Origin: Rhodospirillaceae bacterium
Lineage (GTDB): Bacteria; Pseudomonadota; Alphaproteobacteria; Bin65
Direction: 5' to 3'
Assembly (NCBI GenBank): GCA_028819475.1
Contig: JAPPLJ010000030.1
Coordinates: forward strand, 1 to 64,000
DNA: 64,000 nt
Shown here: piece by piece, positions 11,612 through 61,332 of the stretch
Layout: every line of letters begins with the position of its first letter
Numbering within the stretch: position 1 is the first letter of the stretch
Made by a program: the position numbers and the translations under genes
The notes under the pieces: generated by a model
Seen by the model: the letters and a program-made list of their open reading frames with translations, nothing else
Database searches by the model: none
What the model was told of the DNA's origin: nothing

Positions 11612-12853
11612 ATGACGACCCTGACGCGAGACGACCTGCTGCAACGCGACGCCGGCGATCCGCTGGCGCGCATGCGCGAGCGCTTCGACCTGCCGGACGG
11701 CATGATCTATCTCGACGGCAATTCGCTGGGCGCCCTGCCCCACATCACCAAGGACCGCATCCGCCAGCTGATCGAGGACCAGTGGGGCCTGGACCTGATC
11801 AAGAGCTGGAACGCCCACGACTGGTACCACATGCCGGGGCGCTGCGGCGCCAAGCTCGCCGCCTTCATCGGCGCACGGCCGGGCGAGGTCGTCTGCGCCG
11901 ATTCGACGTCCGTCAACCTGTTCAAGCTGCTCGCCGCCGCGCTGGCCGAGCGGCCCGACCGCACGGTCATCGTCTCGGAGAAGGGCAACTTCCCGACCGA
12001 CCTCTACATCGCCCAGGGCCTCACCGGGATGCTCGGCCGCGGCCACGAACTGCGCCTGGTCGAGAGCGACGCGGAACTGGACGGCGCGATCCGGGACGAT
12101 GTCGCGGTCGTCATGCTGACGCACATCGACTACCGCAGCGGCCGGATGCACGATATGGCGGCGGTGACCGGGCGGGCCCACGACGCCGGCGCGCTCGTGC
12201 TATGGGACCTGGCGCACAGCGCCGGCGCCGTGCCGGTCGATCTCAACGGCGCCGATGCCGACCTCGCCGTCGGCTGCGGCTACAAGTATCTCAACGGCGG
12301 CCCCGGCGCGCCGGCGTTTCTCTTCATCGCGGAACGGCTTCAGGACCGTATCCGGCCGCCGCTCTCCGGCTGGATGGGCCACGCCGCGCCCTTCGATTTC
12401 GACTGGTCCTACAGGCCGGCCGAGGGCATCGCCCGCAATCTTTGCGGCACGCCGCCGGTCCTGAGCCTCGCCGCCCTCGAAGCCAGCCTCGATACGATGG
12501 CGGATCTCGATATGGCCGCGGTCCGCGCCAAGTCTCTGGCGCTGGGCGACCTGTTCATCGAGCTGGTGGAGACCCGCTGTGCGGGGCACGGTTTCACGCT
12601 GGTTTCGCCGCGCGACGCCACCCGGGGCAGCCAGGTCAGCTTCGCCCATCCGGAGGGTTTCACGATCATGCAGGCGCTGATCGCCGGCCACGTCATCGGC
12701 GATTTCCGCGCGCCGGACATCCTGCGCTTCGGCTTCACGCCGCTCTACACCCGCTATGTCGATATCTGGGACGCGGTGGACGTGCTGGCGGATATCATGG
12801 CCAGCGGCCGGTGGAACGAGCCGCGCTTCCGCGCCCGCGGCACCGTCACCTGA
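11612..12853 (+). CDS. kynU: Kynureninase
   Basis: A 413-residue PLP-dependent hydrolase that cleaves kynurenine to anthranilate and alanine (or 3-hydroxykynurenine to 3-hydroxyanthranilate) in tryptophan breakdown. LDGNSLG (34-40) is the family start motif, WDLAHSAGAVP (198-208) carries the PLP-contacting Asp, and GCGYKYLNGGPG (221-232) holds the PLP lysine Lys225. The reading frame is intact to the TGA at 12851-12853. Its last 112 bp plus the stop are duplicated at 13916-14031, so the Abi-like gene downstream appears inserted behind kynU with a second copy of the gene's tail. No other kyn genes are in view. Confidence 0.95.
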   Translation: MTTLTRDDLLQRDAGDPLARMRERFDLPDGMIYLDGNSLGALPHITKDRIRQLIEDQWGLDLIKSWNAHDWYHMPGRCGAKLAAFIGARPGEVVCADSTSVNLFKLLAAALAERPDRTVIVSEKGNFPTDLYIAQGLTGMLGRGHELRLVESDAELDGAIRDDVAVVMLTHIDYRSGRMHDMAAVTGRAHDAGALVLWDLAHSAGAVPVDLNGADADLAVGCGYKYLNGGPGAPAFLFIAERLQDRIRPPLSGWMGHAAPFDFDWSYRPAEGIARNLCGTPPVLSLAALEASLDTMADLDMAAVRAKSLALGDLFIELVETRCAGHGFTLVSPRDATRGSQVSFAHPEGFTIMQALIAGHVIGDFRAPDILRFGFTPLYTRYVDIWDAVDVLADIMASGRWNEPRFRARGTVT

Positions 12854-12854
12854 C
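12739..12854. repeat. Direct repeat copy 1 (native kynU 3' end)
   Basis: This 116-bp stretch, the last 37 codons of kynU with its stop, recurs at an offset of exactly 1177 bp. Only three positions differ: 12751 (C/G), 12767 (T/C) and 12851 (T/C, which destroys the stop in the copy). Similarity ends abruptly on both sides. The repeats flank 1061 bp holding the HEPN/Abi-like gene. The duplicated tail resembles the way integrative elements restore the 3' end of the gene they enter. Confidence 0.93.
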
Positions 12855-13141
12855 ATTCCGCCGTTGCGCGTGGATTACGCAGGCGTCCCGCGCGCCCGAC
12901 CTTTCCGGGACCGGGCCGGCGCGCTCGCCGCGGGGCGGGCGCCTACAGACCGGCCGCTTTGCCGGCGGCCTCCCCGGCCCCTCCCGTGAACGCGGAAAGC
13001 GAATGCGGTTGACAGGCGGACCGGGACAATTCCTGCTGAGGCACAGTCCCGAAGAAATTTAACTCCGAAAAAACAAACCCCGGGCGCATGCGAAACGCAG
13101 AGGCGGACCCGGGGGGTTACAGTCGAGAGGTGGTTTACCCG

Positions 13142-13801
13142 ATGACGGATGTCAATACCTTTCGGGCGCTTCAGGAAGCGTTCTCCCGCGGGCGGATGCA
13201 GACCTACCTGGACTTCGCCCGGGGAGACCGCCAGACCGCGCTGCACCACTATGCCCGGAACGCACAACTCGGGGCCGCTTTCCATGGACCGTTGCAGGCG
13301 CTCGAGGTCGCTCTGCGCAACGCCATGCATGCCCGGCTCGCGGCGCGCTACGGCAGCCGGTGGTACACGGTCGCTGCCGCCGGCCTCGACAGGCACGCCC
13401 GGGACGCTACGGAAGCCGCGCTGAACCGGGGAGCGGCAGAGCCGGGCCGGTTCGTGGCGTCGATGTCGCTGGGCTTCTGGGTCCGGCTCCTCGGCCGCGG
13501 CGGCCATATCGACGGCGGTCGCAAGGCCGACTACGAAAGGACGCTCTGGCGTCCGGCGCTGTTCGAGGCGTTTCCGGGCCGTTCCCGCCGGATGGTGCAC
13601 CGGAGACTGGACCGCCTGCGGCAGCTTCGAAACCGGATCGCGCATCACGAGCCGATATTCGACCGGGACCTGAGGGAGGACTACGAGGGTCTCCTGGAGG
13701 CCGTGGGCTGGATCTCGGCCGACGTCCGACGATGGATCGAGACCCACAGCCTCCTGCCGGATGCGCTCCGGGCGCCGCCCTCCACGCCGGTCTGCTTCTA
13801 G
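13142..13801 (+). CDS. Abi-like protein with HEPN RNase motif
   Basis: A 219-residue protein of the Abi-like (abortive infection related) family. The C-terminal part contains LRQLRNRIAHHEPIF, which includes the HEPN signature R-x4-H (RNRIAH) found in ribonucleases of defence and toxin-antitoxin systems. The N-terminal half has the family block GPLQALEVALRNAMHARL. No membrane segment is seen. ATG 13142 has GAGAGGTGG eight bases upstream; a longer start at 13088 adds 18 poorly conserved-looking residues. No antitoxin or partner gene is adjacent. The gene sits between duplicated kynU tails, so it probably arrived as a single-gene island. A role in phage-triggered RNA cleavage is inference from the family. 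Confidence 0.75.
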   Translation: MTDVNTFRALQEAFSRGRMQTYLDFARGDRQTALHHYARNAQLGAAFHGPLQALEVALRNAMHARLAARYGSRWYTVAAAGLDRHARDATEAALNRGAAEPGRFVASMSLGFWVRLLGRGGHIDGGRKADYERTLWRPALFEAFPGRSRRMVHRRLDRLRQLRNRIAHHEPIFDRDLREDYEGLLEAVGWISADVRRWIETHSLLPDALRAPPSTPVCF

Positions 13802-13915
13802 CCGGTCCGGCTCTGCATCGCCTGACTGCGAATCGGCGCATTAGCTCCGTCCTGCAAACGACAACACTCGAAATGGGGCCGATACCGGCGCGGAACATGC
13901 CGAACGGGCCCTCGG

Positions 13916-14031
13916 GCCGCTCTACACGCGCTATGTCGATATCCGGGACGCGGTGGACGTGCTGGCGGATATCATGGCCAGCGGCCGGTGGAACGAGCCG
14001 CGCTTCCGCGCCCGCGGCACCGTCACCCGAC
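13916..14031. repeat. Direct repeat copy 2 (detached kynU 3' end)
   Basis: Copy of 12739-12854 with 113 of 116 positions identical. The frame is still open as PLYTRYVDIRDAVDVLAD and onward, but it lacks upstream kynU sequence, and the TGA has become CGA. It is a non-functional gene tail. Of the rest of the gene-free gap 13802-14251, 13802-13915 shows nothing recognisable, and the 14024-14138 part contains a tandem repeat and a promoter. Confidence 0.93.
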
Positions 14032-14063
14032 CGGATGCGGCCCCACCTGACCGGATGCGGCCC
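14024..14063. repeat. 20-bp tandem duplication at the repeat edge
   Basis: cacccgaccggatgcggccc (14024-14043) is followed immediately by cacctgaccggatgcggccc (14044-14063), differing at one base. The second unit keeps CACCTGAC, the original end of kynU, while the first carries the mutated CGA. The tandem copy lies exactly at the outer edge of the detached kynU tail. Confidence 0.85.
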
Positions 14064-14251: not shown

Positions 14252-15169
14252 ATGGGCCAGCTGATCTTCGAGACGATTCTGAACGGGCTGCAGTTCGGCA
14301 TCTTCCTGTTCCTGGTCGCAGGCGGGCTGACGCTGGTTCTCGGCATCATGAGCTTCGTGAACCTGGCCCACGGCTCCATGTTCATGATGGGCGCCTATGT
14401 GGCGGCGTGGGTGTTCCAGCAGTCCGACAGCTTCCTGCTCGCCGCCATCGTCGCGCTGCCGGTCATCCTGCTGCTCGGCATCGGGCTGGAATATCTCGCC
14501 TTCCGGACCCTCTACACCCGCGATCACCTCGACCAGGTGCTCGCCACCTTCGGCTGCATCCTGTTCTTCAACCAGATGGTGCTGGTCGTGTTCGGCGCCG
14601 AGAGCCAGGAATTCAAGCTGCCGGAATCGATCAACTTTCCGTTTCCGATGCTCGGCTTCACCTATCCGTTCTACCGGCTGATCGTGATTCTGGCCGGCAT
14701 CCTGGTGGCGATCGGCCTGTATATCGCGATTACCCGGACCCGGGTCGGCATGCGCATCCGCGCCGGCGCGTCGAACCGCGCCATGGTCGGCGCGCTCGGC
14801 GTCAACGTGATCGCGCTCTACACCATCGTGTTCGGCATCGGCGCAGCGCTGGCCGGATTCGCCGGCATCATGATCGGCCCGATCGAATCGGTCGAAAGCG
14901 GCATGGGCGAGGAAAAGCTCATCCTCGCCATCGTGGTGATCGTGATCGGCGGCATCGGCTCGATCCGCGGCGCCTTCATCGCCTCGATCATCGTCGGCCT
15001 GGTCGAGATCGGCGGCCGGGTCTTCATGACCGATATCCTGCGCGCCTTCCTGAACGAGGAGTTCGCCCAGACGGCGGGCCCGGCGATCGCCTCAATGATG
15101 ATCTACATCCTGATGGCGGCGATCCTGTTCTTCAAGCCGGAGGGGCTGTTCCCGGCCCGCACCGGCTAG
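14252..15169 (+). CDS. livH: Branched-chain amino acid ABC transporter permease LivH-type
   Basis: A 305-residue inner-membrane permease of the HAAT family. It has eight or so hydrophobic segments and the conserved start ETILNGLQFGIFLFLVAGG, then GIMSFVNLAHGSMFMMGAY, the LivH signature with the NLAHG loop. A coupling-helix region near GALGVNVIALY matches the ATPase-contact EAA-like loop. It pairs with LivM to form the translocation pore. GGGAGGGAA precedes the ATG by 11 bases. It is the first of four co-directional genes (livH, livM, livG, livF). No periplasmic binding protein is in the operon, so substrate specificity (leucine-type amino acid, amide or urea) is open. Confidence 0.9.
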   Translation: MGQLIFETILNGLQFGIFLFLVAGGLTLVLGIMSFVNLAHGSMFMMGAYVAAWVFQQSDSFLLAAIVALPVILLLGIGLEYLAFRTLYTRDHLDQVLATFGCILFFNQMVLVVFGAESQEFKLPESINFPFPMLGFTYPFYRLIVILAGILVAIGLYIAITRTRVGMRIRAGASNRAMVGALGVNVIALYTIVFGIGAALAGFAGIMIGPIESVESGMGEEKLILAIVVIVIGGIGSIRGAFIASIIVGLVEIGGRVFMTDILRAFLNEEFAQTAGPAIASMMIYILMAAILFFKPEGLFPARTG

Positions 15170-47356: not shown

Positions 47357-47431
47357 GGGCGCGTAGCTCAGCGGGAGAGCACTACGTTGACATCGTAGGG
47401 GTCGCTGGTTCAATCCCAGCCGCGCCCACCA
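47357..47431 (+). tRNA. tRNA-Val(GAC)
   Basis: A full cloverleaf: acceptor stem GGGCGCG/CGCGCCC, D-arm GCTC-AGCGGGA-GAGC, anticodon stem CTACG-TTGACAT-CGTAG with anticodon GAC, T-arm GCTGG-TTCAATC-CCAGC, discriminator A and an encoded CCA (47429-47431). The gene body is 72 nt plus CCA. It reads valine codons GUC and GUU. Its 3' end touches a palindromic repeat, so the site could serve as an attachment point, but no integrase follows. Confidence 0.96.
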
Positions 47432-47432
47432 T

Positions 47433-47580
47433 CCTTCGAGTCGGGGCTTCGAGACGGGGCTTCGAGACGCGGTCTTGCAGACCGCTCCTCAGCCCCCCTC
47501 AGGATGAAGAGATTTGTTGGCTCAACAAATTCAGCTTCATCCTGAGGAGGCGAAGGCGAACGCCTGAGCCGTCTCGAAGG
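47433..47580. repeat. Palindromic interspersed repeat, copy A
   Basis: Arms ccttcgag...ctcgaagg enclose nested inverted repeats: cctcaggatgaag and cttcatcctgagg, with a central aatttgttg/caacaaatt pair. It starts two bases past the tRNA CCA. The right half gaggcgaaggcgaacgcctg is shared with copies B and C. A partial third arm extends to 47669. Confidence 0.88.
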
Positions 47581-48600: not shown

Positions 48601-48740
48601 CGTCCTTCGAGACGAGGTTTCGAGACGCGATCCTGACGGATCGCTCCTCAACCTCTCCTCAGGATGAAGCTGTATTGGTGAAGCAAACACACCCCTTCAT
48701 CCTGAGGAGGCGAAGGCGAACGCCTGAGCCGTCTCGAAGG
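48601..48740. repeat. Palindromic interspersed repeat, copy B
   Basis: cgtccttcgagac at the left and gtctcgaagg at the right enclose cctcaggatgaag (48657-48669) and cttcatcctgagg (48694-48706). Its right 40 bp match copy A (47541-47580) without an obvious difference. Confidence 0.88.
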
Positions 48741-58121: not shown

Positions 58122-58264
58122 CGTCCTTCGAGACGGCTCAGGCGTTCGCCTTCGCCTCCTCAGGATGACGGGTTTTGTTTGCTTCACCCATACAGCTTCA
58201 TCCTCAGGAGGGGCTGAGGAGCGATCCGCAAGGATCGCGTCCCGAAGCCCCGTCTCGAAGGACG
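58122..58264. repeat. Palindromic interspersed repeat, copy C (inverted relative to A and B)
   Basis: cgtccttcgagac at the left and ctcgaaggacg at the right enclose cctcaggatga (58159-58169) and an imperfect cttcatcctcagg. Its left arm is the reverse complement of the right arm of copies A and B, so the orientation is flipped. Confidence 0.87.
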
Positions 58265-61171: not shown

Positions 61172-61332
61172 CGTCCTTCGAGACGGGCGTTTCGAGACGG
61201 CGCTAGAGCGCCTCCTCAACGCCCTCCTCAGGATGAAGGGCTTGGGGTCTGGCCAAATTTGCAGCTTCATCCTGAGGAGGGGCTGAGGAGCGGTTCGCAG
61301 AACCGCGTCTCGAAGCCCCGTCTCGAAGGACG
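61172..61332. repeat. Palindromic interspersed repeat, copy D
   Basis: cgtccttcgagac and gtctcgaaggacg are exact inverted ends. Inside lie cctcaggatgaag (61229-61241) and cttcatcctgagg (61266-61278). It fills half of the gap between the isomerase and the deacetylase. Confidence 0.9.

Follow-up and report, generated by a model that had tools for sequence, protein, structure and literature searches.

A probable two-part AbiF-like module, a hairpin RNA with a HEPN RNase gene, inserted between duplicated kynU 3' ends in an alphaproteobacterium

In the 64,000-nucleotide stretch of a Rhodospirillaceae genome analysed here (the window), the 3' end of kynU, the kynureninase gene, is present twice with a HEPN gene between the copies, which raises the questions of what was inserted behind kynU and how it came to be there. 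We conclude that a two-part AbiF-like module, in which a hairpin RNA of ~37 nt precedes an ORF for a HEPN RNase, was probably inserted between kynU and a transporter operon. The repeat (direct repeat D2) is 116 nt long, with copies at 12739–12854 and 13916–14031 (both + strand), an offset of 1177 and 3 mismatches. kynU itself (11612–12853, + strand; TIGR01814, E = 1.9e-97) is intact, ends in the proximal copy with the stop codon TGA, and encodes a product of 413 aa with 92–98% amino-acid identity in congeners. A sequence-only reading of this DNA had reported the repeat, the preservation of kynU by the first copy, the loss of the stop from the second, and a single gene in between, encoding a 219-aa HEPN/Abi-like protein with an R-x4-H motif; all of these observations stand after recomputation of the coordinates, and there is no other substantial gene between the copies. 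The lost stop reads CGA in the window genome. Because the distal copy of a sister species retains TGA, this loss is secondary and specific to the window genome.

The proximal copy meets the insert at a TGAC/ATTCC junction, and the distal copy is joined to the ancestral downstream sequence and its branched-chain amino acid/UrtB-type ABC permease gene (14252–15169, + strand; PF02653, E = 2.2e-33). Among control gene-sized slots in comparable loci, 0.8% are straddled by such a repeat (at least 100 bp long and at least 80% identical), and the pair is common to the independently assembled sister species; thus, the kynU repeat is not due to chance. Two other direct repeats lie elsewhere in the window: one of 138 bp (83%; 47447–47580 and 48605–48740), which begins 16 bp past a tRNA-Val gene (47357–47431), and one of 112 bp (81%; 58155–58264 and 61223–61332), with copies ~3 kb apart.

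Comparison of orthologous kynU loci supports the earlier proposal that the HEPN gene arrived on an acquired insert. Specifically, four congeners (G002, G003, G004 and G005) have an empty site, at which kynU runs directly into the sequence found 3' of the window's distal copy and is continuous with the permease gene. A second kynU tail was found only in the window genome (G000) and its sister species (G001; kynU 98% identical in amino acids) among the 61 genomes searched, and none of the 61 carries a second tail while lacking the HEPN gene. The insert junctions of the sister species are identical to those of the window. Relative to the window insert, its insert has an extra ~1.6 kb (L033 4150–5750), containing tRNA-Leu(caa), tRNA-Pro(tgg), an IS1595 zinc-ribbon (transposase) fragment and an AT-rich orphan ORF of 279 aa with no Pfam match. 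The left part of the insert (12855–13077) is non-coding and has a strong match in these two genomes only, and the right part (13802–13915) shows clear similarity to the sister species alone. Since the left part is 97.9% identical between the two genomes and the flanks are 97.9 and 98.3% identical, the two inserts descend from one insertion, which would date to the common ancestor of the two species. The insert has been inherited vertically in both.

As for the route of entry, recombination, whether homologous or illegitimate, explains the locus better than site-specific integration does. Incoming module-bearing DNA would have been joined at kynU by such recombination, re-copying the last 116 bp of the gene without a kynU-specific integrase. 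In a Campbell-type version of events, a circular molecule that already bore both the module and a kynU tail would have entered chromosomal kynU by a single crossover. That event would yield exactly the observed order of gene, insert and tail, and homologues of the HEPN gene are common on plasmids (340 records), some of them adjoining RepC-like HTH genes. However, no circular molecule bearing a kynU tail was found and the window insert is without a replication gene, and we consider this particular route unlikely.

The ORF of the module (13142–13801, + strand; ATG at 13142, stop codon at 13799–13801) encodes a predicted AbiF-like HEPN RNase with the motif R163-NRIA-H168, in which R163 (codon 13628–13630) and H168 (codon 13643–13645) are invariant in 18 homologues. 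In Pfam, the protein scores 22.6–22.9 bits against Abi_2, below the curated cut-off of 25.6, and its HEPN_Swt1 match is also under the curated cut-off; the homologues match Abi_2 in 16 of 18 cases (E ≤ 0.01) and HEPN_Swt1 in 13 of 18, mostly weakly. The best match in the PADLOC defence library is PD-T4-5 (E = 1.5e-10; residues 29–101 of a 237-aa reading of the ORF). An AlphaFold model (pLDDT 91.8) predicts an AbiF-like fold: the sole confident fold match in the PDB is 8vz6, PbAbiF bound to its non-coding RNA (probability 1.00, TMq 0.57, but E = 0.023). A profile sequence search of the PDB returned mostly ankyrin/DARPin repeat artefacts, which were discarded. With a dN/dS of ~0.2 (versus five homologues), the HEPN gene is under purifying selection in the window genome.

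The window genome also carries a second HEPN gene, 54% identical and with the same hairpin (G000:C36:164657–165286; L042 6628–7443, minus strand), which adjoins a RepC/DnaD-like HTH gene and a gene resembling a phage head-morphogenesis gene. An HTH protein is encoded directly 5' of the hairpin and HEPN gene in L042, L073, L184 and L185, with RepC/DnaD_N similarity in L042 and L073, and is absent at the window locus.

The cargo had been taken for a single gene in the sequence-only reading, which overlooked a conserved hairpin directly upstream of the ORF (13078–13114, ~37 nt, + strand). When unrelated loci are compared, similarity begins just 5' of this hairpin and ends near the ORF stop; hairpin RNA and ORF recur together as one unit. 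The hairpin, a candidate antitoxin, has an outer stem (CCCCGGG/CCCGGGG) and inner stems (CGC/GCG and UGC/GCA), with an A between CGC and UGC on the 5' side and, on the 3' side, a GAG bulge and a GA before the outer stem. It is found 5' of ~45 homologous loci in Alphaproteobacteria, Gammaproteobacteria, Actinobacteria and plasmids, and its GCAGAGGC core, invariant in the first 30 aligned, is present in most of these loci. In 23 distinct proteobacterial hairpins (an ungapped hand-built set with loops masked), base pairs are formed in 93.3% of pair cells versus 32–54% when partners are slid. Two pairs show double changes; the stem is nearly invariant, so that covariation gives modest support. Our first RNA model, R1, matches the window hairpin at 2.1e-12 and was built on a poor RNAalifold structure of 9 pairs. 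A scan against Rfam 15 detected no known RNA in the window leader, the hairpin included, or in 15 homologue loci in most of which the new hairpin was not detected, and no promoter or terminator for a separate RNA was found at the hairpin.

The hairpin model matches 14 of 385 genomes, mostly at the HEPN gene family. Some copies have no HEPN gene within flanks of ~1.5 kb (L193, L197, L200, L204 and L207, in G280, G185 and G003), and several of these are dispersed copies in one genus. At L162, the gene has three hairpins in front of it and two behind, all five within ~190-bp repeats, and at L161 there is one on each side. In the sister species, the hairpin has lost one base of its stem and the otherwise invariant GAGGC, and the HEPN protein has lost 56 residues in an internal deletion that includes the conserved EVALRN helix; RNA and protein have therefore decayed together. 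The locus is best read as encoding a HEPN RNase, divergent but AbiF-like, and a hairpin RNA that would serve as its antitoxin, both of which are decayed in the sister species.

The hairpin could instead be a cis-acting leader only, controlling translation or attenuation, as its position within ~120 nt of the start codon, both in the window and at most other loci, would allow. We regard this as quite unlikely, given the multiple copies both 5' and 3' of the gene in L162 and L161, the gene-less copies in G185, G280 and G003, and the analogy to the abiF RNA, which is active in trans (PMC12373285).

Gene-tail duplications straddle the HEPN gene in 3 of the 65 homologue loci with enough flank (versus 0.8% of control slots), not counting L162, whose repeats consist of the RNA. 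Including the index case at kynU, the excess has a P-value of ~0.014; without it, the excess is not significant, and we therefore claim no general rule. The recurrence is suggestive only. The second firm case is in Boseongicola (L052), where the module separates an MFS gene from a DedA-like gene and is bordered on both sides by a duplicated stretch that comprises the MFS tail and the intergenic region and differs in length from that at kynU; in the relative L209, the MFS and DedA-like genes are adjacent. The third locus, L073, at a WGR gene, was downgraded to a weaker candidate: the distal WGR tail matches a relative at 90% but the proximal copy of the same locus at 85%, and the proximal side extends 445 bp into native sequence. 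A shared MFS remnant in L051, considered as a captured gene piece, fits common descent with L052 instead.

These loci bear on the proposal of the sequence-only reading that kynU served as an attachment site, at whose 3' end a tyrosine or serine recombinase acting in trans would have integrated the cargo, with the element supplying a tail that restored the gene. The restored kynU 3' end, a repeat that ends at the stop codon and the existence of an empty site agree with such integration. Against it, no recombinase gene or remnant was found in the window insert or in the larger insert of the sister species, and among the 61 genomes searched the second kynU tail is confined to those two. Repeated insertions do not share a target, L052 using an MFS tail and the looser L073 a WGR gene, nor was a shared core site seen; inspection by eye revealed no sequence that the junctions of the three loci have in common. 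The different target and duplication length in L052 point to recombination or illegitimate capture over an integrase. Additionally, both tails of a genome follow its host lineage: they differ at 3 of 116 sites within each genome and at 7–9 between genomes, and share lineage-specific states (positions 12788, 12790 and 12792 in G001; 12801 in G000). Because the tails are closer within a genome than to their orthologues, gene conversion has acted since the species split, and as this is expected of direct repeats, no site-specific recombinase is needed. Integration at a kynU attachment site is thus highly doubtful, although an integrase that has since disappeared may have acted. An assembly artefact, conceivable in draft contigs, has a negligible probability, because two independent assemblies carry the insert with identical junctions.

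Under the preferred reading, a recombined-in AbiF-like module, a HEPN dimer would cleave RNA, and the hairpin, made from the leader transcript, would bind and silence it, in the manner of AbiF and other type III RNA toxin–antitoxin systems. Loss of the hairpin RNA, for example after phage takeover, would free the RNase. The direct repeats may now permit the module to loop out or be exchanged by RecA-type recombination, and the duplicated tails provide a natural case of a module held between recombining repeats.

Cas13 has been proposed to descend from AbiF and its RNA antitoxin. We tentatively suggest, short of regarding it as probable, that the hairpins form an RNA-antitoxin family distinct from the abiF RNA, spread over plasmids and chromosomes of Proteobacteria and Actinobacteria and partnered by a compact clade of HEPN RNases that belongs to the AbiF/Cas13 side of the HEPN tree, and that the multicopy or gene-less RNAs of some genomes could silence incoming toxins. 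A second, sequence-distinct hairpin with a compact, widespread AbiF-like clade would provide an independent comparison for the control of HEPN toxins by short RNAs, and, if the suggestion is true, would give a function to many plasmid genes labelled 'Abi family' or 'hypothetical'.

Among known systems, integrative elements that restore a gene's 3' end resemble this locus in having a gene tail on both sides of the insert and an empty site in relatives, but here there is no recombinase, no shared core site was seen, and the second case differs in target and length. PD-T4-5, like homologues of the module's gene, is a plasmid-borne Abi-like gene and is described by its discoverers as a distant AbiF/D relative; unlike the module, it has no RNA partner reported in the part of their paper drawn on here (PMC9519451). 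In AbiF/AbiFr with RCd22 (Rfam RF03085; PDB 8vz6), as here, a short and sometimes repeated hairpin RNA lies directly 5' of an Abi-type HEPN RNase gene, and the predicted fold is the same. The PbAbiF chain, however, has 297 aa and the module's protein ~220 aa; the AbiF RNA core is AGC..GCUCAAAUC and that of the module GC-A-UGC..GCAGAGGC; and the Rfam abiF model has no match in the window stretch, where this different hairpin of similar size is present. Because the hairpin sequence is not that of the abiF RNA, we class the module as one that works like AbiF. In the AbiF system of Clostridioides difficile, RCd22, an RNA lying upstream, binds the toxic HEPN protein directly and thereby neutralises it, both in cis and in trans (PMC12373285), and judged by its anatomy the module most likely works in the same way, its hairpin being best read, from sequence, as a putative RNA subtype new relative to Rfam 15 within the known AbiF kind.
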